Assembly (NCBI GenBank): GCA_017472925.1
Contig: JAFUNS010000046.1
Coordinates: 1 to 64,000 of the forward strand
Length of the DNA: 64,000 bases
DNA from: Bacteroides sp.
Lineage (GTDB): Bacteria > Bacteroidota > Bacteroidia > Bacteroidales > Bacteroidaceae
Direction of reading: 5' to 3'
The number at the start of each line of letters is the position of its first letter. Within the stretch, counting starts at the first letter, position 1. Position numbers and translations under genes: made by a program. A model generated the notes under the pieces. The model saw only the letters and a program-made list of their open reading frames with translations. It made no database searches and was not told where the DNA came from. Positions 32,529-54,737 of the stretch are shown in pieces.

Positions 32529-32591
32529 CAAAAGTATAAATTAAGTGGGACGTAGAATAATCCAATCGTCCAATTGAGTACAAAAATAGTC
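32529..32591 (-). promoter_or_regulatory. Predicted HTCS operator and promoter of GH127 copy 1
   Basis: Reading the minus strand from 32591: GACTATTTTTG, then 21 bases on GACGATTGG, then the -7 box TACTTTTG ending at 32529. First base to final G of the -7 box is 62 bp, as at 42259 and 54675. Confidence 0.65.
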
Positions 32592-32632
32592 TATAAATTG
32601 TATAAAATTTAAATTAATTTACACCATAGAAT

Positions 32633-32676
32633 TTGCCCATCCATCGGGCTTTTTTACGATGGAATGGGCATTTTTT
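32633..32676. terminator. Hairpin between GH27 and GH127 genes
   Basis: TGCCCATCCATCG (32634-32646) pairs with CGATGGAATGGGCA (32657-32670) with one bulge; six T follow on the plus strand only. For the minus-strand GH27 transcript it lacks a U-tract, so it may be an mRNA 3-prime stabiliser rather than a strong terminator. Confidence 0.5.
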
Positions 32677-32678
32677 GA

Positions 32679-33908
32679 TTATTTTACCTTACTTAGTCTC
32701 ACCATCAGCACACCATGAGGCGGGATTTCGGCCACCAAATTCTGCTTGGTTGTACCCAAATCCTTGTGTTGCCACAAATCGCGTACCTTATATTCAAAAC
32801 GGCGGATGCTTACATCGGTAGCGAAGTAGATGGTTTGCTTGCGCCAGTTGTAATCTAATTTCCAAGGGAACTCGGTGCGGTTCATGAAGCACACGGCCAG
32901 TTCGCCATTGGCAAGAGGCTTGGCCCAGATTTCCTTTTCGCCCATATCCATAAAGCGGCGGGCCTGTTCACCTTTGGGGTCCTGGTTCACGGCAATCACT
33001 TCCTTGTTGGTCAGAATCTCGATGGTTTCCTTGTCCATACTGCGAAGATCGTTTCCGCTCATCAGTGGAGCAGCCAACATACACCACATGGAGAAGTGAG
33101 TGATGTATTCGTCGCGGGTCATGCCACCGTTGCCTACTTCCAGCATTTCGGCATCGTTCCAATGGCCGGGACCGGCATACGGATAGAGGTCGGCCATCTT
33201 GTCGATGATTTCAAGCACACCTACACCACCCCAATCGAAAGTACATTGGTAGCAGTCGCGGATATCGGGAGTGACACGCCACAAATGGCCGATACCCTTT
33301 CCCCACTTCCACGGTTCGTTTTCACCCCATTCGCAAATGCTGAACACAATGGGACGTCCGCAAGCCTTCAAGGCATCGCTCATGGTGCGGTAAGCCGCTT
33401 CAGCCTTCTGACCTTCGTTGGAACACCAGTCGTACTTCAGGTAGTCTATTTCCCACTTGGCATACTGGCGGGCATCCTGGAACTGATAGCCACGGCTACC
33501 GGGACGGCCCTGACAAGTTTCGGAGCCTGCACACGAATAGATACCAATCTTCAAGCCTTTGGAGTGAATATAATCGGAAAGGGCCTTCATTCCGTTGGGG
33601 AACCGTTCGGGGTCTACAATGATGTTACCCTCTTCGTCGCGGCCCACCTGCCAGCAGTCGTCAATCACAATGTATTCATATCCGGCATCCTTCATGCCCG
33701 AGGCCACCATGGCATCCGCCATTTCCTTCAATAACTTTTCGCTTACATCGCAACCGAACTTGTTCCAGCTGTTCCATCCCATAGGGGGAGTCTGTGCCAG
33801 GGAGTTGAATACAGAATCGGATACTTCTTTCTTTTCGCCGAAATACATTTGTGCGTTGGCGGTAAGAGTAAATGCCAACACAAGGAGGGTACAAAGTGCT
33901 TTTCTCAT
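32679..33908 (-). CDS. GH27 family alpha-galactosidase or beta-L-arabinopyranosidase
   Basis: 409 residues with signal peptide MRKALCTLLVLAFTLTANAQ. GH27 hallmarks: TPPMGWNSWNKFGC at 40-53, IVIDDCW at 80-86, nucleophile Asp160 in Y-L-K-Y-D-W-C and acid/base Asp215 in R-V-T-P-D-I. The C-terminal beta domain is complete (ends near VRLSKVK). GH27 contains alpha-galactosidases, alpha-N-acetylgalactosaminidases and beta-L-arabinopyranosidases; the motifs here do not decide. In this locus either removal of alpha-galactose (for example from serine in extensin) or of terminal arabinopyranose fits. A -7 box TATTTTTG lies at 33941-33948. Confidence 0.9.
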   Translation of the reverse strand: MRKALCTLLVLAFTLTANAQMYFGEKKEVSDSVFNSLAQTPPMGWNSWNKFGCDVSEKLLKEMADAMVASGMKDAGYEYIVIDDCWQVGRDEEGNIIVDPERFPNGMKALSDYIHSKGLKIGIYSCAGSETCQGRPGSRGYQFQDARQYAKWEIDYLKYDWCSNEGQKAEAAYRTMSDALKACGRPIVFSICEWGENEPWKWGKGIGHLWRVTPDIRDCYQCTFDWGGVGVLEIIDKMADLYPYAGPGHWNDAEMLEVGNGGMTRDEYITHFSMWCMLAAPLMSGNDLRSMDKETIEILTNKEVIAVNQDPKGEQARRFMDMGEKEIWAKPLANGELAVCFMNRTEFPWKLDYNWRKQTIYFATDVSIRRFEYKVRDLWQHKDLGTTKQNLVAEIPPHGVLMVRLSKVK

Positions 33909-33940
33909 AACAGATATATGGTCTTTTTAGATTAACGGAA

Positions 33941-33948
33941 CAAAAATA
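33941..33948 (-). promoter_or_regulatory. -7 box of the GH27 gene
   Basis: TATTTTTG on the minus strand, 32 bases before the ATG. Directly upstream lie two tandem copies of a roughly 51-bp sequence (33961-34070) that may hold operators. Confidence 0.5.
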
Positions 33949-33960
33949 CTACTTATTTTG

Positions 33961-34070
33961 AGATAGTAGAGCTAAAACGATGTTTTTTTTATCGGTTTAG
34001 CTCTATTATCTTCTATTGCAGTGCTAAACTGACATTTTTTTTATCGATTTAGCTCTACTATCTTCTATTA
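33961..34070. repeat. Two tandem copies of a roughly 51-bp sequence upstream of GH27
   Basis: Read on the minus strand: AATAGAAGATAGTAGAGC and AATAGAAGATAATAGAGC start two units, each continuing TAAAyCGATAAAAAAAA and then a GTTTAGC-like end. The right-hand side (33961-33980) also forms an inverted partner (GATAGTAGAGCTAAAACGAT) with the second unit. The 34071-34330 remainder of this 422-base gap holds a half repeat (copy E), a hairpin and the promoter of the next gene. Confidence 0.7.
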
Positions 34071-34131
34071 AACATAAAACCGTGTTAATCCGTGCAATCC
34101 GAGCCTAAAAAATAGTGGATGCGTATTTCGA
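34070..34131. repeat. Family-1 repeat, copy E (right half only)
   Basis: Only the right arm is left: AACCGTGTTAATCCGTGCAATCCG then AGCCTAAAA and the ATAGTGGATGCGTATTTCGA module. No left arm is present, so it cannot fold like the others. Confidence 0.8.
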
Positions 34132-34212
34132 TGATTTATTTAAGCTTTGATTTGCCATTAGGGCGGCAGTGCTCTGCCAACAGCATTGCACAGTATTGCC
34201 AACAATATGACA

Positions 34213-34240
34213 CAACTCTGCCAGCCTTTTGGCAGAGTTG
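34213..34240. other. Hairpin upstream of the DUF6078-like gene
   Basis: Perfect 11-bp stem CAACTCTGCCA / TGGCAGAGTTG with a 6-base loop and no following U-tract. A second, overlapping pairing of CTGCCAAC (34174-34181) with GTTGGCAG (34237-34244) is possible. Confidence 0.5.
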
Positions 34241-34295
34241 GCAGAAATAATAGAATAATAAAACGGAAACTGTTGATTTGCTCAAATAAAGAGTG

Positions 34296-34303
34296 TATCT
34301 TTG
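34296..34303 (+). promoter_or_regulatory. -7 box of the DUF6078-like gene
   Basis: TATCTTTG, 27 bases before the ATG at 34331. A TTTG at 34277-34280 is 15 bases upstream, a shorter spacer than usual. Confidence 0.5.
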
Positions 34304-34330
34304 TTGGCAAATCAATATTAACCAATAATC

Positions 34331-34765
34331 ATGAATACAGAAATCGATTTGGGGAGCATGCCGCTGAACTATATGAAGTGCACTAATGCATCTTGTGCGA
34401 AATGTCATACTTGTCTACGCTATTTGGCTTACGAAAGTTTGCCCGATTCGGAAGTCAGTCTTAAAATAGTCAATCCCAAACTCCTTTCTCAGCAAACTGA
34501 TGAATGCCCGTATTTCCGTTCGTCAGAAAAGATACGCTATGCCAAAGGATTTATCGAAATTTTAGAAAGCTTACCCAATAAAATATGGAAATCGGTGAGC
34601 GGTAAACTGCAATACCTTTATAATGGGCGCAATTATTACCGGGTAAGAAAGGGTGAAAAGTTGCTTACCCCCAAAGAACAGGAAAGAATTATAGCCATTA
34701 TCCGACAACATGGGGTGAAAAACATCCCCGATTTCGATGCTTATGTAGACGATTATGCGTGGTAA
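34331..34765 (+). CDS. DUF6078-like small protein with N-terminal cysteine cluster
   Basis: 144 residues. Four Cys lie close together near the N-terminus (C-T-N-A-S-C-A-K-C-H-T-C), with another Cys in DECPYF, suggesting a metal site. The C-terminal half is basic (RGRNYYRVRKGEKLLTPKEQERI) and helical, and ends in DDYAW. I recognise it as similar to Bacteroides DUF6078 proteins, whose role is unknown. The gene stands between the GH27 promoter and the zeta-toxin cassette, with its own promoter. Confidence 0.65.
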   Translation: MNTEIDLGSMPLNYMKCTNASCAKCHTCLRYLAYESLPDSEVSLKIVNPKLLSQQTDECPYFRSSEKIRYAKGFIEILESLPNKIWKSVSGKLQYLYNGRNYYRVRKGEKLLTPKEQERIIAIIRQHGVKNIPDFDAYVDDYAW

Positions 34766-34824
34766 AACTTTTTAAAATGACTCCTTCCAAGTCTACTTTT
34801 TCTAAGCTGGTACAAATCTTTTTA

Positions 34825-34900
34825 AACATTTGGTGGATAACGGCAAAATACATAAAAACATTTGGTGGATAACGGCAAAATACATAAAAACATTTGGTGG
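34825..34900. repeat. 32-bp tandem repeat (2.4 units) at the left end of the zeta cassette
   Basis: Units at 34825-34856 and 34857-34888 are identical (AACATTTGGTGGATAACGGC then AAAATACATAAA), and a third begins at 34889 but changes after AACATTTGGTGG into the inverted-repeat sequence. CATTTGGTGG is thus present three times at exact 32-bp spacing. Confidence 0.9.
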
Positions 34901-34924
34901 GGATTGAATTAAAGGATATATTTG
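34893..34924 (+). promoter_or_regulatory. Promoter within the left inverted repeat of the zeta cassette
   Basis: TTTG at 34893-34896 and TATATTTG at 34917-34924 with a 20-base spacer: a full Bacteroidota promoter pointing into the cassette. The right repeat carries TTTG and a degraded TATTTTATTG pointing in from the other side. Confidence 0.6.
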
Positions 34925-35024
34925 CAAGAAAAATTAAGGAGACTGCAATAAACGATTTTGTGCAAAATATGGTTATTACAATAAATTTCTCTGGTTTTAT
35001 AAAAACATTTTTATAACGTATAAA

Positions 35025-35054
35025 TTTGGTTATAAATAGAAATGTGTATCTTTG
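35025..35054 (+). promoter_or_regulatory. Second promoter, directly in front of the zeta-like gene
   Basis: TTTG at 35025-35028, 18-base spacer, TATCTTTG at 35047-35054. The ATG at 35061 is only six bases after the -7 box, so a transcript from here would be leaderless or nearly so. Confidence 0.6.
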
Positions 35055-35060
35055 TAGAAC

Positions 35061-35636
35061 ATGAGCAAAAACCTATACATAATCAGTGGTTGTAACGGAG
35101 CAGGCAAAACTACAGCTTCATTCACGGTATTGCCCGAAATTCTGCAATGTCGTGAGTTCGTAAATGCTGATGAGATAGCCAAAGGTCTATCGCCCTTTAA
35201 TCCAGAAAGTGTAGCAATAGAGGCAGGAAGGTTAATGTTACAACGAATAGATGAACTATTGGAACGGGATGAAACATTCTCTATTGAAACCACTCTTGCC
35301 ACAAAATCTTACATCAACTTAGTACGAAGGGCTCAAGCCAAAGGATATCGTGTACACTTAATATTTTTCTGGCTCGAAACATCTGAATTGGCTGTACAGC
35401 GTGTGGCAGAACGAGTAAACAAAGGCGGGCACAACATCCCGACGGAGGTAATACATCGCCGATACGTAGCTGGGATTCGCAACCTTTTCAAAACTTTCAT
35501 GTCGGAGGTTGACTTGTGGATGATATATGATAACAGCCGTACACCACGAATCTTTGTAGCTAAAGGGGGACGAGCTACGGACGAAGAAATAGTTTCAGAA
35601 ATAATATATAATAAAATCAAAGCCTATGTCGGATAA
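35061..35636 (+). CDS. Zeta-toxin-like P-loop kinase
   Basis: 191 residues. The P-loop G-C-N-G-A-G-K-T-T is at 10-18, followed by FVNADEIAKGLSPFNPE, the SIETTLATKSY segment, and the zeta-type RVAERVNKGGHNIPTEVIHRRYVAGIRNL region with conserved Arg residues. Zeta/PezT toxins phosphorylate UDP-N-acetylglucosamine; many Bacteroidota homologues of this size are annotated only as zeta-toxin family or AAA ATPase. No epsilon-type antitoxin lies upstream. A 59-codon gene overlaps its 3-prime end by 11 bases and is the likely partner. The start cannot move downstream without losing the P-loop strand. Confidence 0.82.
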   Translation: MSKNLYIISGCNGAGKTTASFTVLPEILQCREFVNADEIAKGLSPFNPESVAIEAGRLMLQRIDELLERDETFSIETTLATKSYINLVRRAQAKGYRVHLIFFWLETSELAVQRVAERVNKGGHNIPTEVIHRRYVAGIRNLFKTFMSEVDLWMIYDNSRTPRIFVAKGGRATDEEIVSEIIYNKIKAYVG

Positions 35637-35805
35637 GGAAGTAAAAGAATTTATGGAGAAACTGGATGCCGGTTTAAAACTAGCCGAAGAACGGATGTTG
35701 CAAGAGAAGTCCTTGCGAGGTGAAACCGTGGTGATATATACCGAAGACAAAGGCATTCAGCACATTCCGGCAAGTCAAGTCATAGCTGGTCAGGGCAGAG
35801 TGTAA
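35626..35805 (+). CDS. 59-residue protein overlapping the zeta-like gene, candidate antitoxin
   Basis: ATG at 35626, stop TAA at 35803-35805, in a different frame from the zeta-like gene it overlaps by 11 bases, which indicates translational coupling. The first half is a charged helix (MSDKEVKEFMEKLDAGLKLA) and the second is a beta-like strand region (GETVVIYTEDKGIQHIPASQ). No family recognised. Its size, acidic/helical character and coupling fit an antitoxin or an accessory partner of the kinase, but this is inference from layout. A reversed toxin-then-partner order is unlike epsilon-zeta. Confidence 0.65.
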   Translation: MSDKEVKEFMEKLDAGLKLAEERMLQEKSLRGETVVIYTEDKGIQHIPASQVIAGQGRV

Positions 35806-36010
35806 ATTTATGTAGGATAAATGTAGGATGATGTAGGATAAAAACAAGCATCCTACATGCATTATTATATTGATATACAATGCTATATATTAAATAATGT
35901 AGGCATGTAGGATACTTTGCAATAAAATATCCTTTAACTCAATCCCCATCAAATGTTCGGAAAAACAATGCTACTGTAACTATGTAACGAAAATAAGTAA
36001 AAGTTTAATA

Positions 36011-36322
36011 CTATAATATTGTTAATTGGACACGACGACCAAGACCTTCGAATATTCTAAATAAAGTATTTAATTGTATATCAGCTTTACCATTTTCGAG
36101 TCGAGAAATATATGTTTTCTTTGTTCCAATCTTTTCGGCAAGTTGTTCTTGAGTGAGTCCAGCACGGATACGCTCTTCTTTAAGAGTTAAAGCAAGGCAA
36201 AATGCCTCGGTTTCTTTATCAAACTCTTTACGAGAAGGAGTACCCACCTCACCAAACTCTATATTAAGAAGTTCATCGAGAGTGTTACAATTCATTAGGG
36301 CATCTTCTTTTGTCTTTTTCAT
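36011..36322 (-). CDS. HigA/XRE-family antitoxin
   Basis: 103 residues. After a short N-terminal arm, a Cro/C1-type helix-turn-helix covers about 48-100: IRAGLTQEQLAEKIGTKKTY then ISRLENGKADIQ. It starts 3 bases after the toxin gene stop, in toxin-antitoxin order as in HigBA. As antitoxin it should bind and repress the shared promoter (-7 box at 36689-36696). Confidence 0.88.
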   Translation of the reverse strand: MKKTKEDALMNCNTLDELLNIEFGEVGTPSRKEFDKETEAFCLALTLKEERIRAGLTQEQLAEKIGTKKTYISRLENGKADIQLNTLFRIFEGLGRRVQLTIL

Positions 36323-36325
36323 AAC

Positions 36326-36664
36326 TCAATATTTGTTTTTAAAATATTCTTTCATCAATTTCTCAGCTTTTTCTATCTCTGCAAGGGGCGTTTTCTGAGT
36401 TTTCTTTTGGAATCCATTGAAAAGAATCACTAACGCTCCCTCATCAAAGCAACAAAAAACTCTGAATATATCGCCTCCAAATTCAATTCTAATTTCATAT
36501 AATCCCCTTTTACCCTCTATACTTTTAAGTATGGTAATAGGTAAACGTTCAAGTGTTTGCAGCCAAACTAAAGTTTGTGCTATTTTGCGTCTGACTTTCT
36601 CTGATTGGGCTATATAAAACTCGTTGAAGTAGTTTTTATAGAATCGTATTTCTCTTTTTGCCAT
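36326..36664 (-). CDS. HigB/RelE-type toxin (phage-derived Gp49-like)
   Basis: 112 residues from the ATG at 36664. An upstream non-ATG extension to 36691 is rejected because it overlaps the -7 box TAACTTTG at 36689-36696. The fold pattern is HigB-like: Y-F-N-E-F-Y-x5-K-V-R-R-K-I, then LPITILKSIEG, GLYEIRIEFGGDIFRVFCCF, a hydrophobic LVILFNGFQKKTQKTP and a terminal helix. Such toxins cut ribosome-bound mRNA. The antitoxin gene follows at 36322. Confidence 0.88.
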   Translation of the reverse strand: MAKREIRFYKNYFNEFYIAQSEKVRRKIAQTLVWLQTLERLPITILKSIEGKRGLYEIRIEFGGDIFRVFCCFDEGALVILFNGFQKKTQKTPLAEIEKAEKLMKEYFKNKY

Positions 36665-36688
36665 ATATTCATGTAATCTAATGAACGA

Positions 36689-36696
36689 CAAAGTTA
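36689..36696 (-). promoter_or_regulatory. -7 box of the HigBA-type pair
   Basis: TAACTTTG on the minus strand, 24 bases before the ATG at 36664. Its position fixes the toxin start. Confidence 0.6.
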
Positions 36697-36793
36697 ACGA
36701 AAAAGTTTACAGAAGACAATTTTTTCAGATTTATTTTGATTTATGAGTGCTAATTTTCTTCCTTTTTACTTTTAACTTGCAAAAGTAAATATA

Positions 36794-36960
36794 TTACAAT
36801 AACTGAAAACAGGGGAATATGCTGTCAATCATTTCTTTCGGTACGTTGCAATCTTCGGCTATTGCAGGCCACTTGGATGCGGTATCACAGATTTCATCAA
36901 TAATTAGTGATGCCTCATCGGGTCTGCCATTGTGTAAATGTCATTCATAAGAGTTGCCGA
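36794..36960 (-). pseudogene. Decayed fragment resembling the C-terminus of a HipA-like kinase
   Basis: On the minus strand one frame reads G-N-S-Y-E, a stop, then HLHNGRPDEASLIIDEIC... with SKWPAIAEDCNVPKEMI and FPCFQLL before a stop at 36794. The spacing of SKW--IAED-NVP-EMI--I resembles the extreme C-terminus of HipA-type toxins (W-x-x-x-A-x-E-x-G-V-x-x-x-x-I). There is no start and an in-frame stop, so it is not functional. The rest of the 662-base gap 36665-37326 holds a short hairpin (AAAGGGTCTTTTACCCC, near 37062) and the terminator at 37238-37272; nothing else is seen. Confidence 0.4.
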
Positions 36961-42037: not shown

Positions 42038-42125
42038 TATGAATTTAATGTTAAACAAAATAGGTTAATAATATTCTCAATAAATTTGTCCACCCATCGT
42101 GGACATACATTCATTTTTGACGGGG

Positions 42126-42133
42126 CAAATATA
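42126..42133 (-). promoter_or_regulatory. -7 box of susC (locus 2)
   Basis: TATATTTG on the minus strand, about 89 bases before the ATG at 42037, matches TAnnTTTG. Confidence 0.6.
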
Positions 42134-42195
42134 TTAAATAAACATTAAAGAAGACAATTTAAATCATCTAAAAATCCACCTCAAAACCGCTTTTG

Positions 42196-42321
42196 GACAA
42201 TTGTTGCATTGAAAAAGACGATTTTTGCATTGCCTCCATCGATAAAGAATGAACCTTGGACTATTTTTTTATCAGTTTGTAGTATTTAGTCTTTGATATT
42301 TCAAAAAATTCACTTACTTTG
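42196..42321 (+). promoter_or_regulatory. Phased GACnATT array and promoter of GH97-GH127 (predicted HTCS operator)
   Basis: GACAATT at 42196 and GACGATT at 42217, both extended by nTTGCATTG, then GACTATT at 42259 and TAGTATT at 42280: all spaced by 21 bp or its double. The -7 box TACTTTG ends at 42321, 62 bp after the 42259 half-site. The first pair sits between the divergent promoters and may serve susC. Confidence 0.65.
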
Positions 42322-42362
42322 CGGTGTCCTTAAATGATAACAATTTGTATACGGAAAGTTAT

Positions 42363-44339
42363 ATGATGAAAAAGTCACTACTCATTACCTTATTAATTAT
42401 GGTCGGCTCTGCACTGACCTTGTCGGCTGCTGAAAAGCGCTATTCTTTGGTATCCCCCAACGGAAAAATCAATGTGGAAGTCACCGCCGGTGACGGCCTC
42501 TCTTACCAGATATCATACGGAAACAGTGTAATTCTTTCTAATTCAACTATTGATTTAATTTTACCTAAAGGACTTTCGGTAGGTAAAGGGGTACGCGTAA
42601 GTGGCGTACAGAGGAAAAAGATTGTAGAAAAGGTAGACGCTCCGTTCTACCGCTTCAGTGAGTTCGTTGCGGGATGCAACGAACTCACCCTGAAGCTCAA
42701 AGGCGGATTCGGTGTTACCTTCCGTGCCTACGATGAAGGAATTGCCTATCGTTTCTATATAAATAAGAAAGAGCAAGTGGTCATTGAAAATGAAGTGGCC
42801 GAACTGAACTTCCCAAGCGACTATACCGCTTACTTGCCCTATTCTACCAACGACAAGAATCCGATGGCCATGGCCTTCCAGAATATCTACGATGTAACTC
42901 CACTTTCAAAGGCACAACCTAAATTGGCCTTCTTGCCTGTAACCGTAGATTGCGGGAAAGCCAAAATTACCGTATTGGAAAGTGACTTGGAAGCCTATCC
43001 GGGTATGTTCGTGAAAGCCGAAGGTACTTCGCTGAAAGGTGTGTTCGCCCCCTATCCTACTAAAACGGATTTCTATCCATGGCGTATGCAGGAATATGTG
43101 ACCGAAACTGCCGATTTCATCGCAAAAATCGACGGTAAACGCAACTTGCCATGGCGTGTATTGGCCATCACCGAAAAGGATACCGATATGCCGACCAACA
43201 ACTTGGTATATGCCTTGGCTTCGCCCAACCGCATCGGCGATACTTCATGGATCAAGACCGGTAAGGTAGCCTGGGACTGGTGGAACGACTGGAACCTGAA
43301 GGGTGTACCGTTCAAGGCAGGCATCAACATGGATACCTATAAATATTATATAGACTTCGCCAGCAAGAACGGCATTGAATTCATTGTATTGGACGAAGGC
43401 TGGTACAACCCGAAGAGCGGTGACATGCTGACCGTGATTCCGGAACTGGACCTCGCCGAACTGATTGCATACGGTAAGCAGAAGAATGTGGGCATTGTGC
43501 TTTGGACCGTATTCAATGTGCTCGACAAGCAATTGGAAGCTGCGTGCCAGAAGTACAGCGCCATGGGTATCAAGGGATTCAAGGTAGACTTCCTGGACCG
43601 TGACGACCAGACTGCCGTAGAAATGGTGTACCGCATTGCCGAAGCAACTGCCAAGCACAAGCTGACATTAGATTTGCACGGCATCTACAAACCGACAGGT
43701 ATCAACCGTACATACCCCAATATCATCAACTTTGAAGGAGTGTTCGGTATGGAAGAAGTGAAGTGGACTGACATCAAGAACAACATGCCGCTTTACGATG
43801 TGACTTTCCCTTACATCCGCATGATGGCCGGACCGGTAGACTATACACCGGGTGCCATGAGCAATGCCACCAAGGCCGACTGGAAAGCCATGTACTACAC
43901 TCCGCAGAGTATGGGTACACGCTGCCACCAATTGGCTACCTATATTGTACACGATTCGCCGTTCACCATGTTGTGTGATGCACCGACCAACTACATCGGC
44001 GAAGAAGAGTGTGTGGACTTCATTACTTCCATTCCGGTAGAAGTGGACTCAACGTTCATTGCCGACGGTAAATTGGGAGAACACATCGTTACCGTACGCA
44101 AGGCCGGCGAAAACTGGTATGTGGGCGGTATGACCAACTGGGACGAACGCGATGTAACCATCGACTTCTCGTTCCTGCCCGAAGGCGTTACTTACCAGGC
44201 TACCCTCTTTACAGACGGTATCAATGCCAACAAGAATGCCGAAGATTATGCAAAGCAAACCTTGACCGTAAAGAAAGGTGACTCGAAGAAGATTCACCTG
44301 GCATCGGGCGGTGGCTTTGCCATGAAACTAATTAAATAA
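42363..44339 (+). CDS. GH97 family glycosidase, retaining type (alpha-galactosidase or beta-L-arabinopyranosidase)
   Basis: 658 residues from ATG at 42363 (MMKKSLLITLLIMVGSAL, signal peptide). The open frame extends upstream to a GTG at 42324, but that lies 3 bases after the -7 box. The N-terminal beta domain (SLVSPNGKINVEV) precedes the barrel with DWWNDWN, IEFIVLDEGWY and G-F-K-V-D-F-L-D-R-D-D-Q; Asp409 there is the position that is the nucleophile in retaining GH97 enzymes and is absent from inverting SusB-type alpha-glucosidases. HGIYKPTGINRTYPN and a Glu in FGMEE follow. The retaining branch includes alpha-galactosidases and beta-L-arabinopyranosidases. First gene of a two-gene unit with GH127 copy 2. 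Confidence 0.88.
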   Translation: MMKKSLLITLLIMVGSALTLSAAEKRYSLVSPNGKINVEVTAGDGLSYQISYGNSVILSNSTIDLILPKGLSVGKGVRVSGVQRKKIVEKVDAPFYRFSEFVAGCNELTLKLKGGFGVTFRAYDEGIAYRFYINKKEQVVIENEVAELNFPSDYTAYLPYSTNDKNPMAMAFQNIYDVTPLSKAQPKLAFLPVTVDCGKAKITVLESDLEAYPGMFVKAEGTSLKGVFAPYPTKTDFYPWRMQEYVTETADFIAKIDGKRNLPWRVLAITEKDTDMPTNNLVYALASPNRIGDTSWIKTGKVAWDWWNDWNLKGVPFKAGINMDTYKYYIDFASKNGIEFIVLDEGWYNPKSGDMLTVIPELDLAELIAYGKQKNVGIVLWTVFNVLDKQLEAACQKYSAMGIKGFKVDFLDRDDQTAVEMVYRIAEATAKHKLTLDLHGIYKPTGINRTYPNIINFEGVFGMEEVKWTDIKNNMPLYDVTFPYIRMMAGPVDYTPGAMSNATKADWKAMYYTPQSMGTRCHQLATYIVHDSPFTMLCDAPTNYIGEEECVDFITSIPVEVDSTFIADGKLGEHIVTVRKAGENWYVGGMTNWDERDVTIDFSFLPEGVTYQATLFTDGINANKNAEDYAKQTLTVKKGDSKKIHLASGGGFAMKLIK

Positions 44340-44385
44340 GGACTCAGTAATGAGTTGGTTTATAGGTTAGGTAGGTAGCAAAGCT

Positions 44386-44418
44386 ATGGCGGGGAAGAGG
44401 TAGTAGGCTTCCCCCCAT
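44386..44418 (+). other. Intercistronic hairpin between GH97 and GH127
   Basis: ATGG-(C bulge)-GGGGAAG pairs with CTTCCCCCCAT around a 10-base loop. No U-tract follows, so it looks like an mRNA stability or processing element in the 169-base gap. No promoter is obvious between the genes. Confidence 0.45.
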
Positions 44419-44508
44419 GGCAATGCTTAAAAACTTATCAAACGGACAACCGCTCATGTCACCATACAATGAAAATAAACAGTTAATTAAATACTAACTT
44501 TTTAAACC

Positions 44509-46935
44509 ATGAAGAAAATCTTTTTAACCGCACTTGTTGCCGCTACAGCATTGAGCGTACAAGCGCAAAAGACTGAATCACACGGGTATCCTTATGACCC
44601 AGTACCTTTTACTTCGGTAAAAGTAACAGATGCTTTCTGGGGCCAACGCCTCCAGGCAAGCCGTGAAGTAACCATCCCTCTCGCATTCAGCAAATGTGAA
44701 GAAACCGGACGTTACGAAAACTTTGTGAAAGCCGCCAATCCAAGCGATGACTATGTAGTAGGCGGTTTGGCATTCGATGACACCGACGTTTACAAGACTA
44801 TCGAAGGTGCCAGCTATTTGTTGCAGACTTATCCCGACAAGAAGTTGATGAAGTACATCGACAGTGTGTTGGTAATTGTTGCTGCCGCTCAGGAACCTGA
44901 CGGTTACTTGTACACCAGCCGTACCATGAACCCCAAGAAGCCACACGAATGGGCAGGTACCAAGCGTTGGGAATTGGTAGAAGACTTGAGCCACGAATTC
45001 TATAACCTCGGCCACATGGTAGAAGGTGCTATCGCTCACTACCAAGCTACCGGCAAGCGTAACTTCTTGGATATCGCTATCCGTTATGCAGACTGTGTAT
45101 GCCGCGAAATCGGTGAAGGTGAAGGTCAGGTAGTACGTGTACCGGGTCACCAGATTGCTGAAATGGCATTGGCCAAGTTGTATCGCATCACCGGTGAAAA
45201 GAAGTACCTCGACATGGCCAAGTTCTTCTTGGACAAGCGTGGTTACACTACCCGTACCGATGAATACAGCCAGGCTCACAAGCCAGTATTGGAACAAGAT
45301 GAAGCTGTAGGCCACGCAGTACGTGCCGCTTACATGTATGCAGGTATGGCCGACGTTGCCGCTATGACAGGTGACAAGAGCTACATCGAAGCTATCGACC
45401 GTATTTGGGACAACATCGTAACCAAGAAGCTTTACATTACCGGTGGTATCGGTGCAACCAACCACGGTGAAGCATTTGGTAAGAACTACCAATTGCCTAA
45501 CATGTCGGCTTATTGCGAAACTTGTGCAGCTATCGGTAACGTATATGTAAACCACCGTTTGTTCTTGTTGCACGGTCACGCCAAGTACTATGATGTATTG
45601 GAACGTACTCTTTACAACGGTTTGATTTCAGGTATCTCATTGGACGGTGGTGGTTTCTTCTACCCGAACCCATTGGAATCTATGGGTCAACACCAACGCA
45701 GACCTTGGTTCGGTTGTGCTTGCTGTCCGTCAAACGTTTGCCGTTTCATCCCTTCATTGCCAGGTTATATCTACGCTGTTAAGGACAACGACGTATATGT
45801 GAACTTGTTCATGGCCAACGATGTGGACTTGAAGGTAAACGGCAAGAAGGTTAGCTTGAAGCAAACTACTGAATATCCTTGGAACGGTGATGTAAACGTA
45901 GAAGTTACACGTAACTCTGCCGGTAAGTTCGCTATGAAGATCCGTATTCCGGGTTGGGTACAAGGCGAAGTGGTACCAAGCGACCTCTATACTTATACAG
46001 ATGGCAAGCGTTTGAAATATAACGTAAAGGTGAACGGTGAAGACGTGACTTCTGAATTGAACAACGGTTACTTCACTATCGACCGCAAGTGGAAGAAGGG
46101 TGACAAGGTATCTGTTCACTTCGATATGGAACCACGTACAGTGAAGGCTCATGGTAAGGTAGAAGCTGACCGTGGTCGTGTAGCTGTTGAAAGAGGTCCG
46201 GTAGTATATTGTGCTGAATGGCCAGACAACAACTTCGACGTATTGAGCGTATTGATGAACCGCAATCCGAAGTTTGAAGTGGAAAAAGCCAGCATGACTA
46301 TCGAAAACGCCGGTGTAACCGTTACTCATCCATTCCAAAAGATCAAGACTTCTGTTCAGACTTTGAAGTATGATGAAAAGGGTCGTTTGACTGCTCAAGA
46401 CCACACATTGAACATGATTCCTTACTATGCATGGGCTCACCGCGGTACTGGTAACATGGCTGTATGGTTGCCAAATGAAGTAAGTTCAACTCGTCCTGTA
46501 ACTGCCGCTACTTTGGCTTCAAAGAGTAAGATTGATGCTTCTCACCAAGCTACTTCTTTGAGCTCAATCACAGACGGTCTGGTTCCTGCTGACGAAAACG
46601 ACCGTACTATTCCTTACTACCACTGGTGGCCAAAGGAAGGTACTACTGAATGGATTTCTTACGAATTCCCAACAGAAATGACCGTATCAAGCTCTACAGT
46701 ATATTGGTATGACGACGCTCCTTGGGGTGGTTGCCGTGTTCCTAAGTCTTGGAAGATCTATTACAAAGATGCTTCAGGCAACTGGGCTCCGGTTCAAAAT
46801 CCTGACAAGTACGGTGTATCAAAGGGTAACCCGAACGTGGTGAACTTTGATCCTGTCAAGACCAAGGCTGTGAAACTGGAAATCGTTCAACCTGAAAAGA
46901 ACGCATCCGGTATCTTTGAATGGGAGGTTAAGTAA
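44509..46935 (+). CDS. GH127 family beta-L-arabinofuranosidase-like enzyme (copy 2)
   Basis: 808 residues with a Sec signal (MKKIFLTALVAATALSVQAQ), not a lipoprotein, unlike copy 1. The GH127 site is complete: Glu337 and Cys339 in Y-C-E-T-C and Cys405-Cys406 in F-G-C-A-C-C-P. Downstream beta domains end in a discoidin-like module (IPYYHWWPKEGTTEWISYEF). Codons are strongly biased to GGT, CGT, AAC and GAA compared with GH97, a sign of high expression. Secretion as a soluble protein beside a lipidated paralogue suggests periplasmic and surface versions of one activity. It follows GH97 by 169 bases. Confidence 0.9.
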   Translation: MKKIFLTALVAATALSVQAQKTESHGYPYDPVPFTSVKVTDAFWGQRLQASREVTIPLAFSKCEETGRYENFVKAANPSDDYVVGGLAFDDTDVYKTIEGASYLLQTYPDKKLMKYIDSVLVIVAAAQEPDGYLYTSRTMNPKKPHEWAGTKRWELVEDLSHEFYNLGHMVEGAIAHYQATGKRNFLDIAIRYADCVCREIGEGEGQVVRVPGHQIAEMALAKLYRITGEKKYLDMAKFFLDKRGYTTRTDEYSQAHKPVLEQDEAVGHAVRAAYMYAGMADVAAMTGDKSYIEAIDRIWDNIVTKKLYITGGIGATNHGEAFGKNYQLPNMSAYCETCAAIGNVYVNHRLFLLHGHAKYYDVLERTLYNGLISGISLDGGGFFYPNPLESMGQHQRRPWFGCACCPSNVCRFIPSLPGYIYAVKDNDVYVNLFMANDVDLKVNGKKVSLKQTTEYPWNGDVNVEVTRNSAGKFAMKIRIPGWVQGEVVPSDLYTYTDGKRLKYNVKVNGEDVTSELNNGYFTIDRKWKKGDKVSVHFDMEPRTVKAHGKVEADRGRVAVERGPVVYCAEWPDNNFDVLSVLMNRNPKFEVEKASMTIENAGVTVTHPFQKIKTSVQTLKYDEKGRLTAQDHTLNMIPYYAWAHRGTGNMAVWLPNEVSSTRPVTAATLASKSKIDASHQATSLSSITDGLVPADENDRTIPYYHWWPKEGTTEWISYEFPTEMTVSSSTVYWYDDAPWGGCRVPKSWKIYYKDASGNWAPVQNPDKYGVSKGNPNVVNFDPVKTKAVKLEIVQPEKNASGIFEWEVK

Positions 46936-49122: not shown

Positions 49123-51841
49123 CCGACTGACCTGCCTGCTCTTTGCGGGATTCCTGATGCTTTGTGGCAGAGTAGCCGCACAGACTGCATCCGACAGTAT
49201 CTCCATCTTCTCGCTGATAGAGGCGGTGGAAAAAAATACTTCGTGCCGCATCTTTACTACCATTGACCAACCTTTCCTGGTCAAGAAAACGGGAACACTG
49301 AAACCCGGTGTAGAACATTTGCAAAGAGCACTGAACGGAACCATCTATCAGGTAACCGTCTATCAAGACTATATCTTTGTGCTGCCGGCCGCACCTTTGG
49401 AAACTTCACTTCCCCGGTTCTGGCAGAAAAACGGACAAGCAGGTGCCGAAAGCAGTCGGGCTGTATTGACTGCCGTACGGGCCACTTCCGAAAACATGGT
49501 ATACGACATCGGCGACAAATACAAGCCTTCTACTCAAAAACAAATCACCCTGACCGGTGAAATCATCGACTTCAAGACGGGACAACCCATGATGGGAGTC
49601 AACGTTATCCACCGGAAACCATGGGCAGCGGCCGTAACCGATGTAAACGGACACTTTACACTCACCTTACCGGCCGGTCACAACGTACTGGAAATAAGTG
49701 GTATCAACATCAAGGATACCCAACGCCAATACATGCTTTATGCCGATGGAACCACCCACATCATTCTGGAAGAAGAAGACCACTTGTTGGACGAAGTGGT
49801 AGTAACTTCGGGACGAGTGGAAAACGTGAGAGGCCTGCAATTGGGTATGGAGAAATTCCAACCCAAGCTATTGAAGAACATCCCTACTGCTATGGGGGAA
49901 GTGGATGTGCTGAAAATGATACAGACACTACCGGGCGTAAAGACAGTGGGCGAAGCTTCCAGCGGATACAATGTACGTGGAGGTGCTACCGACCAGAACC
50001 TGTTGCTGTTGAACAACGGAACCATCTATAATCCCAACCACTTGTTCGGCTTCTTCTCGGCCTTCAACTCGGACATGGTACAGGATGTGGAACTGTACAA
50101 GAGCAGTATCCCGGCCCAATACGGTGGACGTATCTCGTCGGTACTGAACATTACCGGCAAAGAAGCCAGCAAGGAAGAGTTTACGGGAGCCGCCAACATT
50201 GGTTTAGTGACCAGCAAACTGAATTTGGAAATTCCAATCGTCAAGGAAAAGATGTCGCTATTGCTGAGCGGACGTACTACCTATTCGGACTGGATTATGA
50301 AGAAACTGCCCGAAAAGAGCGGATACAAGGATGGTAATGCCGGATTCTATGACTTGGGAGCTACCTGGTCGTACACCATCGACCCTTTCAATAAAGTAAA
50401 TGTATATGGTTATTACAGCCACGACCGTTTTGAATTCAACGAAAACGAGAAGTATGCCTATAGCAATATGAACGCTTCGGTGAATTGGCGTGCCATCTTC
50501 AACGAAAAGATAACGGCCAACTTTGCCGCCGGGTACGACCATTACGACTATATGAACGATGAAAGCGTGGATATAGTAGCCGCAGCCCGATTGAAGTTTG
50601 CCATCAACCAAGTCTATGCCAAAGCAAACTTCGACCACCAGTTGGGTAACGGACACACCTTGAACTACGGACTTTCTTCCATGTTCTATGACTTGAAGCC
50701 GGGCATTTATGAACCGTTACTTGAAGAGTCGACCATCCAACGAAAGGAATTACAAAAGGAAAAGGCTTTGGAAAGCGCCCTCTATATAGGCGACCAATGG
50801 GAAATCAGCCCCAAATTATCGGTTGATGCCGGTGTACGCCTATCCATCTTCAACGCTTTGGGTGCACGTACCTATTATAACTATGCCAACGGTGAACTGC
50901 CTTCGCTCACCAACCTGACCGATACGGCAACCGTAGGAAGTGGAAAGATACTCAAGACTTACATGGGTCCCGAAATCCGTTTGTCGGCCCGTTATGCCTT
51001 CTCCGACGACTGGTCGGTAAAAGCCGGTTTCAACACCATGCGCCAATACATCCACAAATTGTCGAACACCACTATCATGTCTCCCACCGACACCTGGAAG
51101 TTGAGTGACAAACACATCAAGCCTCAACGAGGCTGGCAATTGGCCGGTGGTGTATATTACAACACTCCTAACAAGATGCTGGAATTCTCGTTGGAAGGTT
51201 ATTACAAGAAACTGAACGACTATCTGGATTACCGGAGCGGTGCACAACTCATTATGAACGAACATTTGGAAACCGATGTCATCAATACAGAAGGTTATGC
51301 ATACGGAGTGGAATTCCAAGTAAAGAAGCCCGAAGGAAAACTGAACGGATGGATGAGCTATACCTACTCGCGTACTTTCCTCCGCCAGAACGACCCGCGC
51401 ATCGCCAATCCCGTAAATCACGGAGAATGGTATCCGACGGAATACGACAAGCCACACGACTTCAAACTGATAGCCAACTACAAGTTTACCCGTCGGTACA
51501 GCATGTCGCTTAATTTGGACTACAGTACCGGACGACCTACTACGGTACCTGCCGGACAATATTGGGATAACTCCTTGAACCGGATGCAAGTGTATTATAC
51601 CGACCGTAACAGCTATCGGGTGCCTGACTATTTCCGTATCGACTGGTCAATCAACATCGAGCCGAGCCATCACCTGACTTTGCTTACCCACAGCTCCATC
51701 TCCATCGGTGTATACAACCTGACCGGACGCAAGAACGTATATTCCATTTATTACGTTCCCGAAGGAGAAAAAATCAAAGGTTACAAGATGTCTATTTTTG
51801 GTTCGCCCATACCTTTTGTAACATATAACATCAAATTCTGA
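49112..51841 (+). CDS. TonB-dependent outer-membrane receptor (non-SusC)
   Basis: 909 residues. Signal peptide MKSNRLTCLLFAGFLMLCGRVAAQ, an N-terminal STN-like domain (about 25-95), a carboxypeptidase-regulatory-like domain (LTGEIIDFKTGQPMMGVNV, about 148-230), a plug with DEVVVTSGR, GGATDQNLLLLNNGTIYNPN and the AQYGGRISSVLN motif, and a barrel ending in Phe (FVTYNIKF). It lacks the SusC signature and has no SusD partner; it is followed 5 bases later by a DUF4249 lipoprotein. STN domains often talk to anti-sigma factors, but no sigma/anti-sigma gene is nearby. Substrate unknown. Confidence 0.92.
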   Translation: MKSNRLTCLLFAGFLMLCGRVAAQTASDSISIFSLIEAVEKNTSCRIFTTIDQPFLVKKTGTLKPGVEHLQRALNGTIYQVTVYQDYIFVLPAAPLETSLPRFWQKNGQAGAESSRAVLTAVRATSENMVYDIGDKYKPSTQKQITLTGEIIDFKTGQPMMGVNVIHRKPWAAAVTDVNGHFTLTLPAGHNVLEISGINIKDTQRQYMLYADGTTHIILEEEDHLLDEVVVTSGRVENVRGLQLGMEKFQPKLLKNIPTAMGEVDVLKMIQTLPGVKTVGEASSGYNVRGGATDQNLLLLNNGTIYNPNHLFGFFSAFNSDMVQDVELYKSSIPAQYGGRISSVLNITGKEASKEEFTGAANIGLVTSKLNLEIPIVKEKMSLLLSGRTTYSDWIMKKLPEKSGYKDGNAGFYDLGATWSYTIDPFNKVNVYGYYSHDRFEFNENEKYAYSNMNASVNWRAIFNEKITANFAAGYDHYDYMNDESVDIVAAARLKFAINQVYAKANFDHQLGNGHTLNYGLSSMFYDLKPGIYEPLLEESTIQRKELQKEKALESALYIGDQWEISPKLSVDAGVRLSIFNALGARTYYNYANGELPSLTNLTDTATVGSGKILKTYMGPEIRLSARYAFSDDWSVKAGFNTMRQYIHKLSNTTIMSPTDTWKLSDKHIKPQRGWQLAGGVYYNTPNKMLEFSLEGYYKKLNDYLDYRSGAQLIMNEHLETDVINTEGYAYGVEFQVKKPEGKLNGWMSYTYSRTFLRQNDPRIANPVNHGEWYPTEYDKPHDFKLIANYKFTRRYSMSLNLDYSTGRPTTVPAGQYWDNSLNRMQVYYTDRNSYRVPDYFRIDWSINIEPSHHLTLLTHSSISIGVYNLTGRKNVYSIYYVPEGEKIKGYKMSIFGSPIPFVTYNIKF

Positions 51842-51846
51842 CGCCC

Positions 51847-53028
51847 ATGAAACGATTGAAATATATAGTCCTCTCTTTGTGCTGCCTCACCGTCATGATT
51901 TGCAGCTGTATAGAAGAATTCAATGCCCAACTGCCCGAAGGTGACAGCAACCTGTTGGTAGTGGACGGAAACATCATTTCCGATTCTACTTGTGTGTTTA
52001 CATTAACCCGAAGCTTCTCCTTGAACGAAGAAGGAATACCCGAAGACTATAACCAAATAAATGCCGACGTATGCGTCAAGGGAAGCGATGGAAGTGTCTA
52101 TACCGGTACTTCCATGGGAAACGGGAAATACAGTGTCAAGATAGGTACACTGAATCCACAGCAGACCTACCATGTAGAAATAGTATGGGAAGGAAGCACT
52201 TATACTTCCATTCCACAACAACCTTTGGCTACCGAAGGCCTGTCCTTGAAGTTCACCCAACCCGACAGCAACGGTCCGGTACATATCCTTCTCTCTACGG
52301 AATCGCCTGCCAACAACGAAGCAGCCTATTATACATGGAACTATATCGAAGACTGGGAAGTACGTACCAACTTCAGAACCAATGCGGAATTCAATCCCAA
52401 AGATTCTTCCATCATTGAGTATGACTATTTCCCTTATGCAAAAGGATGGGTGCACCGCCAGTCGAAAGATATACTCATCAATACAACAGCCAATTACAAC
52501 AATAACCAGTTGAAGGATAAAACACTTTATTCCATTGGTAACCAAGACCTCCGCATATCACATTTGTACAGTACTTTTGTGGTACAACGAAAGATGACCA
52601 AGGGTGAATACGAGTATTACGAATGCAAGAAACGGTTTACCAACGATATGGGCGGACTGTTTACTCCACAACCTTCCGAACTGCCTACCAACTTGAGATG
52701 CAATGATAACAGAAAGCGAGTGATTGGTTATGTAGGCGTAAACATGAATGTCAGCATCCAACAACTGTATATACCGACCACCGAGGTGAATTATGTACAG
52801 GCATTCAGATGTGAAGAGACAGAAGAAAAAGAACTTTTAGGTAAACTTAGCCAATTAGGTATAAAAAACACCACCGACTTGTATAATTACGGTTATCGGG
52901 TTTCTTATTATTTGTATTTAGGTCCTATGTCTCCGCCTATGATAACATGGGCCGAATACCGATGTGTGGACTGCCGTGCACTGGGTGCCGACCCTAATGC
53001 AAGACCTGATTTTTGGCCTGATTTTTAA
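51847..53028 (+). CDS. DUF4249 family lipoprotein
   Basis: 393 residues. Lipoprotein signal MKRLKYIVLSLCCLTVMICSC. The N-terminal half is Ig-like (LVVDGNIISDSTCVFTLTRS, QTYHVEIVWEGSTYTS), typical of DUF4249, and the C-terminus is Cys- and Asp-containing (YRCVDCRALGADPNARPDF). DUF4249 proteins regularly follow this type of TonB receptor in Bacteroidota and are thought to be its surface partner. Gaps of 5 and 11 bases to its neighbours mark an operon. Confidence 0.85.
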   Translation: MKRLKYIVLSLCCLTVMICSCIEEFNAQLPEGDSNLLVVDGNIISDSTCVFTLTRSFSLNEEGIPEDYNQINADVCVKGSDGSVYTGTSMGNGKYSVKIGTLNPQQTYHVEIVWEGSTYTSIPQQPLATEGLSLKFTQPDSNGPVHILLSTESPANNEAAYYTWNYIEDWEVRTNFRTNAEFNPKDSSIIEYDYFPYAKGWVHRQSKDILINTTANYNNNQLKDKTLYSIGNQDLRISHLYSTFVVQRKMTKGEYEYYECKKRFTNDMGGLFTPQPSELPTNLRCNDNRKRVIGYVGVNMNVSIQQLYIPTTEVNYVQAFRCEETEEKELLGKLSQLGIKNTTDLYNYGYRVSYYLYLGPMSPPMITWAEYRCVDCRALGADPNARPDFWPDF

Positions 53029-53039
53029 ATGAAAGAAGT

Positions 53040-54653
53040 ATGAAAAGAATTGTCATCCTCCTAAGCTGCATCCTTTCCTTTTTGAATGTAGGTGCACAAC
53101 AACAAGAATATATCCGCCTGATAACAGACAAAGACTGCTATTTGGCCGGTGAAGAATTATGGCTGAAAGTTTGCGTCAGTGATAAGGACAACCAACCGAT
53201 GGACATCAGCAAGGTAGCCTATATTGAAGTAAGTGACGCTGAACAGGTGTATGCCCAGGCCAAGATAGACCTGAACAATGGATGGGGAAGCGGACGCATT
53301 CAATTGCCAAGAACCATGCCTTCGGGTACTTTCCAACTTACCGCCTACACCCGCTATCTACGGAATTGGGGAGAAGAAGCCTTCAACCGCCAACTGATAG
53401 CTGTTGTCAACACCTTGCAATCGTCGGACAAAGACCGCGTGGAATGGACCGATTCATTACCGTCCCTACCTGTTGCCACTTCTTCCAAACTAAGCAGTGA
53501 CAAGCAGACATACAACAAACGCAGCAAGGTAGTACTGTCGTGGAAAGACCTGCCATCCGATGCTTTTGGTTGGACACTGTCGGTTGTACGGAAAGACTAT
53601 GCTTTGGGAGGTGTTCCCCAACCGGCATCGTACACTCCTGTAAGCCAGCCTCAAGCCTTTCCATGGATAGCCGAATGCGAAGGACACATTGTTCAAGCTA
53701 CATTGACTAATCCTACCGTCCAGACAAGAACCGCCCGAATGGGATGCGTAGGAAAGAACATCCGCATGTTTGAAGGGAAAGTTTCCAAAGAAGGCAAGGA
53801 TTATTTCTTCTATACCTACGGAATCAACAACATGCAAGATATAGCCTTCGATGCGGTGCTTGTAAATCCTGAAGAGAAAGTACGTCTGGACATTGTTTCT
53901 CCCTTTGCAGAAATCAAGGCCAAGGAACTTCCTATCCTTCCGCTGTACAGTCCGGAAAAAGCTTTGTTGGAACGCAGTGTAATGATGCAAGTACATACAT
54001 TGGTGCCCGATAGCAGCAACAGTCAGTCAGTGGCCCGTGCACTCCATAATTTTACTCCCTACATCACTTACAAATTGGATGAATGGACCCGTTTCAACAG
54101 TGTGCGTGAAACATTCATTGAATTTATTCCCGGTATCCGAAGCATCAAACGGGGAAATACCCACATTATCCAAGTCTTTTCGGAAGAAACCGGCCAATTC
54201 AGTTATTTCAAATCATTGGTACTGATTGACGGTGTACCCATTGACAACCACGAACAAGCCTTGGATTACGATGCACGCCTGTTGGAATACATCCACCAAT
54301 ACAGAGGAAGTTATGCATTCAGCGGACAGATATACGACGGAATTGTTTCCATGACTACCTATAAGGGAGCCTTGAACGGCCTCCGCCTGGAAGAAAACGC
54401 CTCACTCTTTGCTTATGAATTTCCACAAAAAGGCATCGGTTTCCCCATGAAGGACTATAGTGATGAAGCGGAGAAAGCATCTCGCGTTCCCGATTTCCGA
54501 CACACTTTGTACTGGAATCCTTCTTTGGAAAAAGATTCGCATACCGTAGAATTCTACACATCCGACTTGAAAGGAACCTATCAAGCGACCTTACGAGGCT
54601 TTACTGAAAAAGGGGCTTTTTGGGAAGAAAAAGTCGATTTCATCGTAGAATAA
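53040..54653 (+). CDS. Secreted macroglobulin-like (MG2-type) hypothetical protein
   Basis: 537 residues with a signal peptide (MKRIVILLSCILSFLNVGAQ). The first 110 residues follow the MG2 pattern of alpha-2-macroglobulins: I-R-L-x-T-D-K-D-C-Y-L-A-G-E-E-L-W-L-K, then MPSGTFQLTAYTRYLRNWGE. No thioester motif (CxEQ) is present, so it is not a trapping macroglobulin. The C-terminal 200 residues include a second beta domain that resembles a plug-like DGVPIDNHEQAL motif. Last gene of the four-gene operon. Confidence 0.7.
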   Translation: MKRIVILLSCILSFLNVGAQQQEYIRLITDKDCYLAGEELWLKVCVSDKDNQPMDISKVAYIEVSDAEQVYAQAKIDLNNGWGSGRIQLPRTMPSGTFQLTAYTRYLRNWGEEAFNRQLIAVVNTLQSSDKDRVEWTDSLPSLPVATSSKLSSDKQTYNKRSKVVLSWKDLPSDAFGWTLSVVRKDYALGGVPQPASYTPVSQPQAFPWIAECEGHIVQATLTNPTVQTRTARMGCVGKNIRMFEGKVSKEGKDYFFYTYGINNMQDIAFDAVLVNPEEKVRLDIVSPFAEIKAKELPILPLYSPEKALLERSVMMQVHTLVPDSSNSQSVARALHNFTPYITYKLDEWTRFNSVRETFIEFIPGIRSIKRGNTHIIQVFSEETGQFSYFKSLVLIDGVPIDNHEQALDYDARLLEYIHQYRGSYAFSGQIYDGIVSMTTYKGALNGLRLEENASLFAYEFPQKGIGFPMKDYSDEAEKASRVPDFRHTLYWNPSLEKDSHTVEFYTSDLKGTYQATLRGFTEKGAFWEEKVDFIVE

Positions 54654-54674
54654 ACAGAATTCGATTACTATTTA

Positions 54675-54737
54675 GACTATTTTTTCATCAAATTGGAGGA
54701 TTTTGTTGGCTTATTTGGGTTTATTCAACTTACTTTG
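54675..54737 (+). promoter_or_regulatory. Predicted HTCS operator and promoter of the peptidase-GH146 unit
   Basis: GACTATTTTTTCATCA at 54675, a second half-site GAGGATTTTG near 54696 (21 bp on), and TTACTTTG ending at 54737. GACTAT to final G is 62 bp. The stretch from GACTAT to the -7 box matches the GH97 promoter at most positions. Confidence 0.65.

Follow-up and report, generated by a model that had tools for sequence, protein, structure and literature searches.

Hybrid two-component systems (HTCSs) of Bacteroides thetaiotaomicron are predicted to bind direct repeats averaging 21 bp (Ravcheev 2013, PMC3878776), and the HTCS_Man operator is described as a pair of 16-bp sites separated by 5 bp (PMC3878776). 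Because motifs are assigned to only 16 of the 36 HTCSs of this species (Ravcheev 2013, PMC3878776), many glycan clusters are without a known operator. In electrophoretic mobility shift assays, a fragment of BT0366 containing the receiver and the DNA-binding domain shifts the promoters of the arabinan polysaccharide utilization loci (PULs), and a supplement legend of the same paper indicates that predicted BT0366 sites and -7 boxes are marked together (PMC5061871). Here, we analysed 64,000 nucleotides from Bacteroides sp. (assembly GCA_017472925.1, contig JAFUNS010000046.1, positions 1 to 64,000; hereafter the window), in which a tandem repeat with a period of 21 bp precedes genes of a polysaccharide locus that contains susC/susD as well as an HTCS gene at 59246, and lies 62 bp from the -7 box of three promoters. 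Judged by sequence comparison, this repeat is best explained as the putative operator of the HTCS at 59246, a reading that we hold with high confidence.

The window sites are similar to the B. thetaiotaomicron HTCS operators in that both are two-site direct repeats of ~21 bp before glycan genes near an HTCS gene; by contrast, the operators described in that species serve other regulators and other glycans (PMC3878776). Moreover, the window sites share the 16-bp plus 5-bp layout of HTCS_Man, a comparison of layout and not of sequence (PMC3878776). As in the BT0366 system, an HTCS is found with a cluster for an arabinose polymer, a likeness of description and not of sequence (PMC5061871). Direct repeats are also predicted for SusR in Bacteroides polysaccharide promoters; however, the centres of the SusR sites are 67 or 77 bp apart versus 21 bp in the window (PMC3878776). 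Because ~21-bp direct repeats have already been predicted for HTCSs (Ravcheev 2013, PMC3878776), the regulon of the window, although new, belongs to an established type. The texts of PMC3878776, PMC11253607, PMC5061871, PMC6874557 and PMC7366714, as far as they were covered, state no fixed distance between operator and -7 box, with subscription papers, supplements and figures outside this scope. New here are the fixed promoter register, a fourth in-phase site and the back-to-back paired sites of relatives.

A possible B. thetaiotaomicron counterpart of the window cluster is BT3674-87, in which we take BT3674 to be a GH127 gene. For this PUL, which includes the HTCS BT3678, arabinogalactan is the listed substrate, and growth of the BT3678 deletion mutant on arabinogalactan is given as 149.9% of wild type, i.e. 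not lowered (PMC3243724). In the table of PMC3878776, BT3678 is listed without a regulon name, and its motif has thus apparently not been assigned.

An initial annotation of the window had placed the start of GACTATTTTT exactly 62 bp ahead of the final G of a -7 box in three promoters, with a second half-site 21 bp further on. Direct reading and a script both gave this geometry at 32591 (reverse strand), 42259 (forward strand) and 54675 (forward strand). Site 1 (32529-32591, reverse strand; units at 32591 and 32570, box end at 32529) is located before GH127 copy 1 and has the second half-site GACGATT and the box TACTTTTG. Site 2 (42259-42321, forward strand; units at 42259 and 42280, box end at 42321) is located before GH97-GH127 copy 2 with the second half-site TAGTATT, and site 3 (54675-54737, forward strand; units at 54675 and 54696, box end at 54737) before DUF6055-GH146 with the second half-site GAGGATT; the box is TACTTTG in both. 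The initial annotation overlooked a fourth tandem repeat (site 4; 42196-42232, forward strand; units at 42196 and 42217), which has no -7 box at 62 bp and is on the same strand as site 2, starting 63 bp (3 x 21) upstream of 42259. Because site 4 is in phase with site 2, the four half-sites of the SusC2-GH97 intergenic region follow a common register that is interrupted by a single gap. The promoters had been described as unlinked; since sites 1-3 all lie within one 22-kb cluster, they are not. GACTATTTTT is also present at 29889 (forward strand), upstream of SusC1, without a second half or a box. Separately, a 32-bp blastn match (E 0.002) pairs the stretch 42196-42232 with the GH97 site of G033, a relative in the same genus.

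In the assembly from which the window derives (2.81 Mb in 79 contigs, 79.7% complete), GACNATT-N14-KANNATT-N31-TTTG had three perfect matches, i.e. sites 1-3, and the perfect matches to GACTATTTTT-N11-KANKATT were likewise sites 1-3 only, both patterns having been derived from the sites themselves. At up to two mismatches, the former pattern gave 23+21 matches versus 11+14 in the reversed control; a pattern of the type used in the initial annotation, at up to three mismatches, gave 127+119 versus 147+125, i.e. no excess. Because the loosely matched pattern of the latter type was no better than the reversed control, we adopted two models. The first is a 37-bp position weight matrix (PWM) trained on 24 sites from other genomes, leaving out the window sites, one doubtful site from locus L132, one site containing N and near-duplicates. 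The second, R1, is a 63-position profile of 27 sites from relatives that includes the box.

With the PWM, sites 1, 3, 4 and 2 scored 29.6, 29.6, 27.4 and 24.4, respectively, and the next-best score in the window was 7.5. With R1, the four sites ranked 1-4 in their own genome (best 150 of 2,861 first-look candidates scored), with E values of 1.3e-5 for site 3, 7.3e-5 for site 1, 0.0031 for site 2 and 0.0095 for site 4; the search thus returned no crowd of matches before unrelated genes, in line with the initial proposal. The fifth-ranking candidate (C75:59960; E 0.015, PWM score 14.1) was not counted as a member.

The sites could resemble each other by chance or by recent duplication of a promoter and have no regulatory meaning. 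The GH127 copies and the SusCD pairs inside the window are paralogous, and sites 2 and 3 are identical at 40 of 63 positions; the initial annotation had noted that two of the three sites match at most positions, which is correct for this pair, while the other two pairs match at 32 and 33 of 63, i.e. about half. However, in 30 simulated windows (first-order Markov) the top PWM score was 18.0, below the lowest score of the four window sites. Moreover, an alignment of 23 non-redundant sites, including those of the window (five near-identical sites were dropped from 28), gave the consensus GACKATTnTTnCATy-N3-TTR repeated at 21 bp, and most of the conservation fell within the two units and the box, the sequence between them being little conserved. 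Three positions that played no part in the selection of sites were conserved, i.e. T9 (23/23), A13 (22/23) and T20 (22/23). Finally, promoters of distant genomes have retained the repeat. Altogether, these observations make chance or duplication extremely improbable.

The unit that recurs every 21 bp is ~16 bp, GAC(G/T)ATTnTTnCAT(C/T), so that the half-site of the initial annotation is present as written but is part of a longer element. The two elements of each unit, approximately one helical turn apart, would suit the two helix-turn-helix motifs of an AraC-type domain.

We counted spacings in 171 kb of intergenic DNA from loci chosen by protein homology only and from the window, with repeated sequences counted once. 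Distinct GACnATT pairs numbered 26 at a spacing of 21 bp, and no other spacing in the range 8-59 gave more than six. For 72 looser 21-bp pairs, in which the box was not scored, the box was 62 bp away in 13, and no other single distance accounted for more than three. Control spacings of 24 and 23 gave four boxes and one box at 62 bp, respectively; all five were 21-bp sites recounted through a chance second match. Because R1 includes the box, loci fetched with it favour 62 bp, and the unbiased evidence for the distance is therefore this homology-chosen count.

Relatives were also fetched by protein homology, i.e. 80 named loci around GH127/GH146-type genes as well as stretches with orthologues from the same genus. 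Within the genus, the repeat was found at 62 bp before GH127a, GH97, SusC2 and DUF6055 in G033, before GH127a and GH97 in G010 and G063, and before GH127a in G001, GH97 in G031, SusC in G024 and GH146 in G035. In named metagenome-assembled genomes of Bacteroidales (L082, L089/L090, L109, L118, L124 and L129), it precedes GH146, SusC1, DUF6055 or CotH, again in this register. At the threshold used, 13 of the 80 named loci had a site. Twelve named loci, ten chosen for a site and two for an HTCS, were carried further, leaving aside L067, L085 and L090 (site) and L071, L072, L135 and L136 (HTCS); in these genomes, 10/12 had a site at E<=1e-3 and 8/12 an HTCS 47-55% identical to that of the window. 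The HTCS and site-bearing genes were on one contig in four of them (G452, G453, G454 and G456, the last with L118). An order-wide search with a strict pattern and variable box distance matched 1 of 393 genomes, with one match in the reversed control; as this pattern misses the window's own sites, the search shows little beyond that the motif is not ubiquitous.

In relatives, many sites occur as back-to-back pairs facing opposite ways, with starts ~28-79 bp apart, mostly ~28, 41, 50-52 or 67-68 bp. A box at 62 bp is present on both sides in L089 and L118 and on one side only in others, and in L048 the second site of the pair faces the HTCS gene. By contrast, the two neighbouring sites of the window point in one direction.

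The HTCS at 59246 (59246-63256, forward strand; 1336 aa) contains in one chain, according to Pfam, Reg_prop (PF07494), Y_Y_Y (PF07495), HisKA (PF00512), HATPase_c (PF02518), REC (PF00072) and an AraC-type helix-turn-helix domain (HTH; PF12833), and it is the proposed activator. For comparisons we used the DNA-binding part (aa 1215-1336; 62888-63253, forward strand), to which the HTCSs counted as orthologues are 62-84% identical, i.e. those with at least 52% identity over the whole protein. We found 13 Y_Y_Y proteins in the assembly including this HTCS. A comparable DNA-binding domain is present in 11 of the 12 others, with no more than 42% identity to that of the HTCS at 59246, and the twelfth gave no match.

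Among 61 genomes of the genus, a site (E<=1e-3) was detected in 18/18 genomes with an HTCS orthologue, the window's own included, versus 3/43 without one, namely G035 (E 4.5e-9) and G032 and G080 (E 3-5e-4). For each genome, the best 87 first-look candidates were scored in the site search and the best 10 in the HTCS orthologue search. After removal of the 11 training genomes, the counts were 8/8 versus 2/42 (Fisher p 8e-8). Relatives that keep the HTCS thus also keep the repeat, and the repeat is therefore very probably the binding site of this HTCS.

Within neighbourhoods extending to at most 20 kb, a site was present near 8/9 orthologous HTCS genes versus 0/11 paralogous HTCS genes (Fisher p 7e-5). 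The nine orthologues compared are the group with 52-53% identity, 9 of the 17 orthologues outside the window's genome; several of the loci L046-L054 were known to carry sites before the comparison, and the split into orthologues and paralogues was made by HTCS identity alone. The eight neighbourhoods contain ten sites, eight before GH127a and two before GH27; the ninth (L257) ends at a contig edge, and the sites of its genome (G067) are on a different contig. Across all 17 orthologue genomes, the HTCS gene had a site no more than 15 kb away on its contig in 13 and no more than 10 kb away in 11 (p 7e-5 and 9e-4, respectively, against 0/11 paralogues). Of the eight genomes outside the 52-53% group, five have a site on the HTCS contig, and the distance from site to HTCS gene is 0.2 kb in G001, 4.4 kb in G033, 9 kb in G063, 11 kb in G010 and 14 kb in G031. 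In total, these sequence comparisons make a single activator, the HTCS at 59246 as put forward in the initial annotation, the best-supported candidate.

Several observations weigh against this assignment. At the threshold that gave 13 loci with a site, 67 of the 80 named GH146-type loci had none. G455 has two sites and no HTCS at E<=1e-150, and in G035, whose assembly is 79% complete, two sites are present but the HTCS is not. Conversely, an HTCS orthologue (domain 64% identical) occurs in G463 without any model match at E<=1e-3, although locus L132 of this genome has a PWM score of 31.2 at 9534. The stretches retrieved from the HTCS contigs of G024, G069 and G019 have no site at 62 bp, and the sites of these genomes are on other contigs. 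A bare GACnATT-pair pattern with the box at 62 bp matched 11/61 genus genomes, five of them without an orthologue (reversed control, one), and GACnATT pairs alone are thus not specific to the HTCS at 59246. Moreover, the motif model and the genome count partly share genomes. Within the window, the promoter of the HTCS gene itself has no site (best PWM score -5.1), and autoregulation was dropped as a candidate; similarly, no site faces the divergent SusC2 (best PWM score -9.4 in that orientation), whereas SusC2 of G033 has one.

Another HTCS or an unlinked AraC-type regulator might bind the repeat, with the HTCS at 59246 merely travelling with the cluster. Related HTCSs may share motifs (Ravcheev 2013, PMC3878776), and in L138 and L146 HTCS domains 53-55% identical to that of the window occur with a similar repeat at 62 bp. 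The sites of G455 and G035 without a detected orthologue would fit such a regulator, and because the window's own assembly is incomplete, a closer paralogue could be missing from it. However, the paralogues that are present there are distant in their DNA-binding domains. Moreover, the 11 paralogous HTCSs whose neighbourhoods were devoid of sites have domains 45-54% identical to that of the window, and several are beside SusC, GH97, GH127 or GH146. Together with the distribution of the site over genomes with and without the orthologue, this makes a different regulator unlikely and argues for the HTCS at 59246.

Promoters recognised by sigma-ABfr have TAnnTTTG at -7 and TTTG near -33 (PMC7366714). 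By sequence, a candidate -7 box of this type is present, in sites 2 and 3 as TTACTTTG with one mismatch. The second unit of the repeat stops ~26 bp short of the -7 box end, at the expected location of the -33 element. TTG at box-relative positions 33-34 was found in 0/24 site promoters versus ~20% of 518 controls (12% and 8%), a modest, post hoc difference; TTTG within 30-40 was found in 3/24 site promoters versus 96/518 controls, i.e. no difference.

What we infer beyond the repeat, its register, its conservation before orthologous genes and its co-occurrence with the HTCS concerns binding, the direction of control (activation), ligand, phosphorylation, polymerase contact and operon extents, and would proceed as follows. 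The periplasmic propeller/Y_Y_Y sensor would bind a breakdown product of a plant glycan bearing beta-arabinofuranoside, and the HTCS kinase would phosphorylate the fused receiver. Two AraC-type domains would then bind head-to-tail on one face of the DNA, each occupying one 21-bp unit, which spans two helical turns, with one helix-turn-helix reading GAC(G/T)ATT and the other the T..CAT element approximately one turn further on. The gene-proximal unit would cover the -33 region, so that the HTCS dimer would replace the -33 element and, held in the fixed 62-bp register, recruit RNA polymerase. Finally, GH127 copy 1 with SusC1/D1, GH97-GH127 copy 2 and DUF6055-GH146 would be switched on jointly.

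Alternatively, the HTCS might bind the repeat and mainly repress, or the repeat might serve another step of initiation. Repression of its own PUL has been demonstrated for one HTCS, BT2391 (PMC11253607), and some strong sites of relatives have no box at 62 bp. However, the REC domain of the window HTCS has a SHIP motif at aa 1152, whereas BT2391 is given as FHIP-QK; S/CHIP in REC together with a DK pair in the DNA-binding domain is the consensus of most HTCSs (PMC11253607). Moreover, the sites are upstream of the -7 box. This is where activators usually sit. We consider repression or another role in initiation quite improbable and favour activation by the HTCS at 59246.

A stricter proposal combines three elements, i.e. 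a 62-bp stereochemistry (rarely 61 or 63 bp), a proximal half that replaces the -33 element, and further sites, in phase as from 42196 to 42259 or back-to-back as in relatives, that let HTCS dimers cooperate on one intergenic region. Taken jointly, these are a tentative proposal, possible but with somewhat less than an even chance. If true, it would provide a positional code for reading HTCS regulons from sequence. As a general rule for other HTCSs, the 21-bp period did not stand out: among 138 promoters near paralogous HTCSs in the window's genome and in the genus, period-21 self-similarity gave 7 counts versus 57 at period 22 in what is an insensitive test, and one promoter had a 21-bp period at 62 bp. 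As a single case, a different 21-bp tandem (ACCGTATTTGTTGTTT...) lies exactly 62 bp from a box before the open reading frame (ORF) at 12091-13278 of L261, near a paralogous HTCS. The motif and its fixed register, found in several genera, offer a testable regulon for beta-arabinofuranoside use as well as a concrete hypothesis for how HTCSs may activate promoters with a poor -33 element.

The predicted target of site 1 is GH127 copy 1 (30049-32484, reverse strand; PF07944), and its orthologous promoters carry the site. SusC1 and SusD1 (24995-29794, reverse strand; assigned with Pfam, as are the genes below) are downstream of it on the same strand, and neither has a site upstream (best PWM scores -21.0 for SusC1 and -13.5 for SusD1). 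Because of this gene order and because no other site is present, SusC1 and SusD1 are probably on the GH127 copy 1 transcript, all depending on site 1. Sites 2 and 4 have GH97 (likely start at 42363) and GH127 copy 2 as predicted targets (42324-46935, forward strand); GH97 orthologues carry the site, and GH127 copy 2 would be on the GH97 transcript. The predicted target of site 3 is the DUF6055 protein together with the GH127/GH146-type enzyme (54770-59052, forward strand), and orthologous promoters carry the site. The DUF6055 protein had been called a peptidase, for which Pfam provided no support: it gives only DUF6055, with no known function.

The HTCS of G033 (L191, 9170-13234) is 68% identical to that of the window, with 82% identity in the DNA-binding part and 91% in the adjacent GH146, which may reflect fast divergence of the sensor or its replacement. 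Between GH146 and the HTCS gene of the window, a long inverted repeat was seen by eye at 59065-59170 (GGATTACACGGATTTCACGGAT and its complement). In the window (42058-42324), SusC2 and GH97 are separated by ~265 bp, versus ~805 bp in G033 (L190, 12698-13503), where the intergenic region is repeat-rich. Upstream of SusC1, copies of GTCATCCTGAGCAAAGCGAAGGATCTG were seen by eye at 29900-30045. Within the glycan cluster, between GH27 and SusD2 (35061-36691), there is a zeta-toxin-like ORF and an HTH_3/Gp49-like pair resembling a toxin-antitoxin system. Finally, an ORF for a PD-(D/E)XK family transposase is located at the edge of the cluster (19564-20490).

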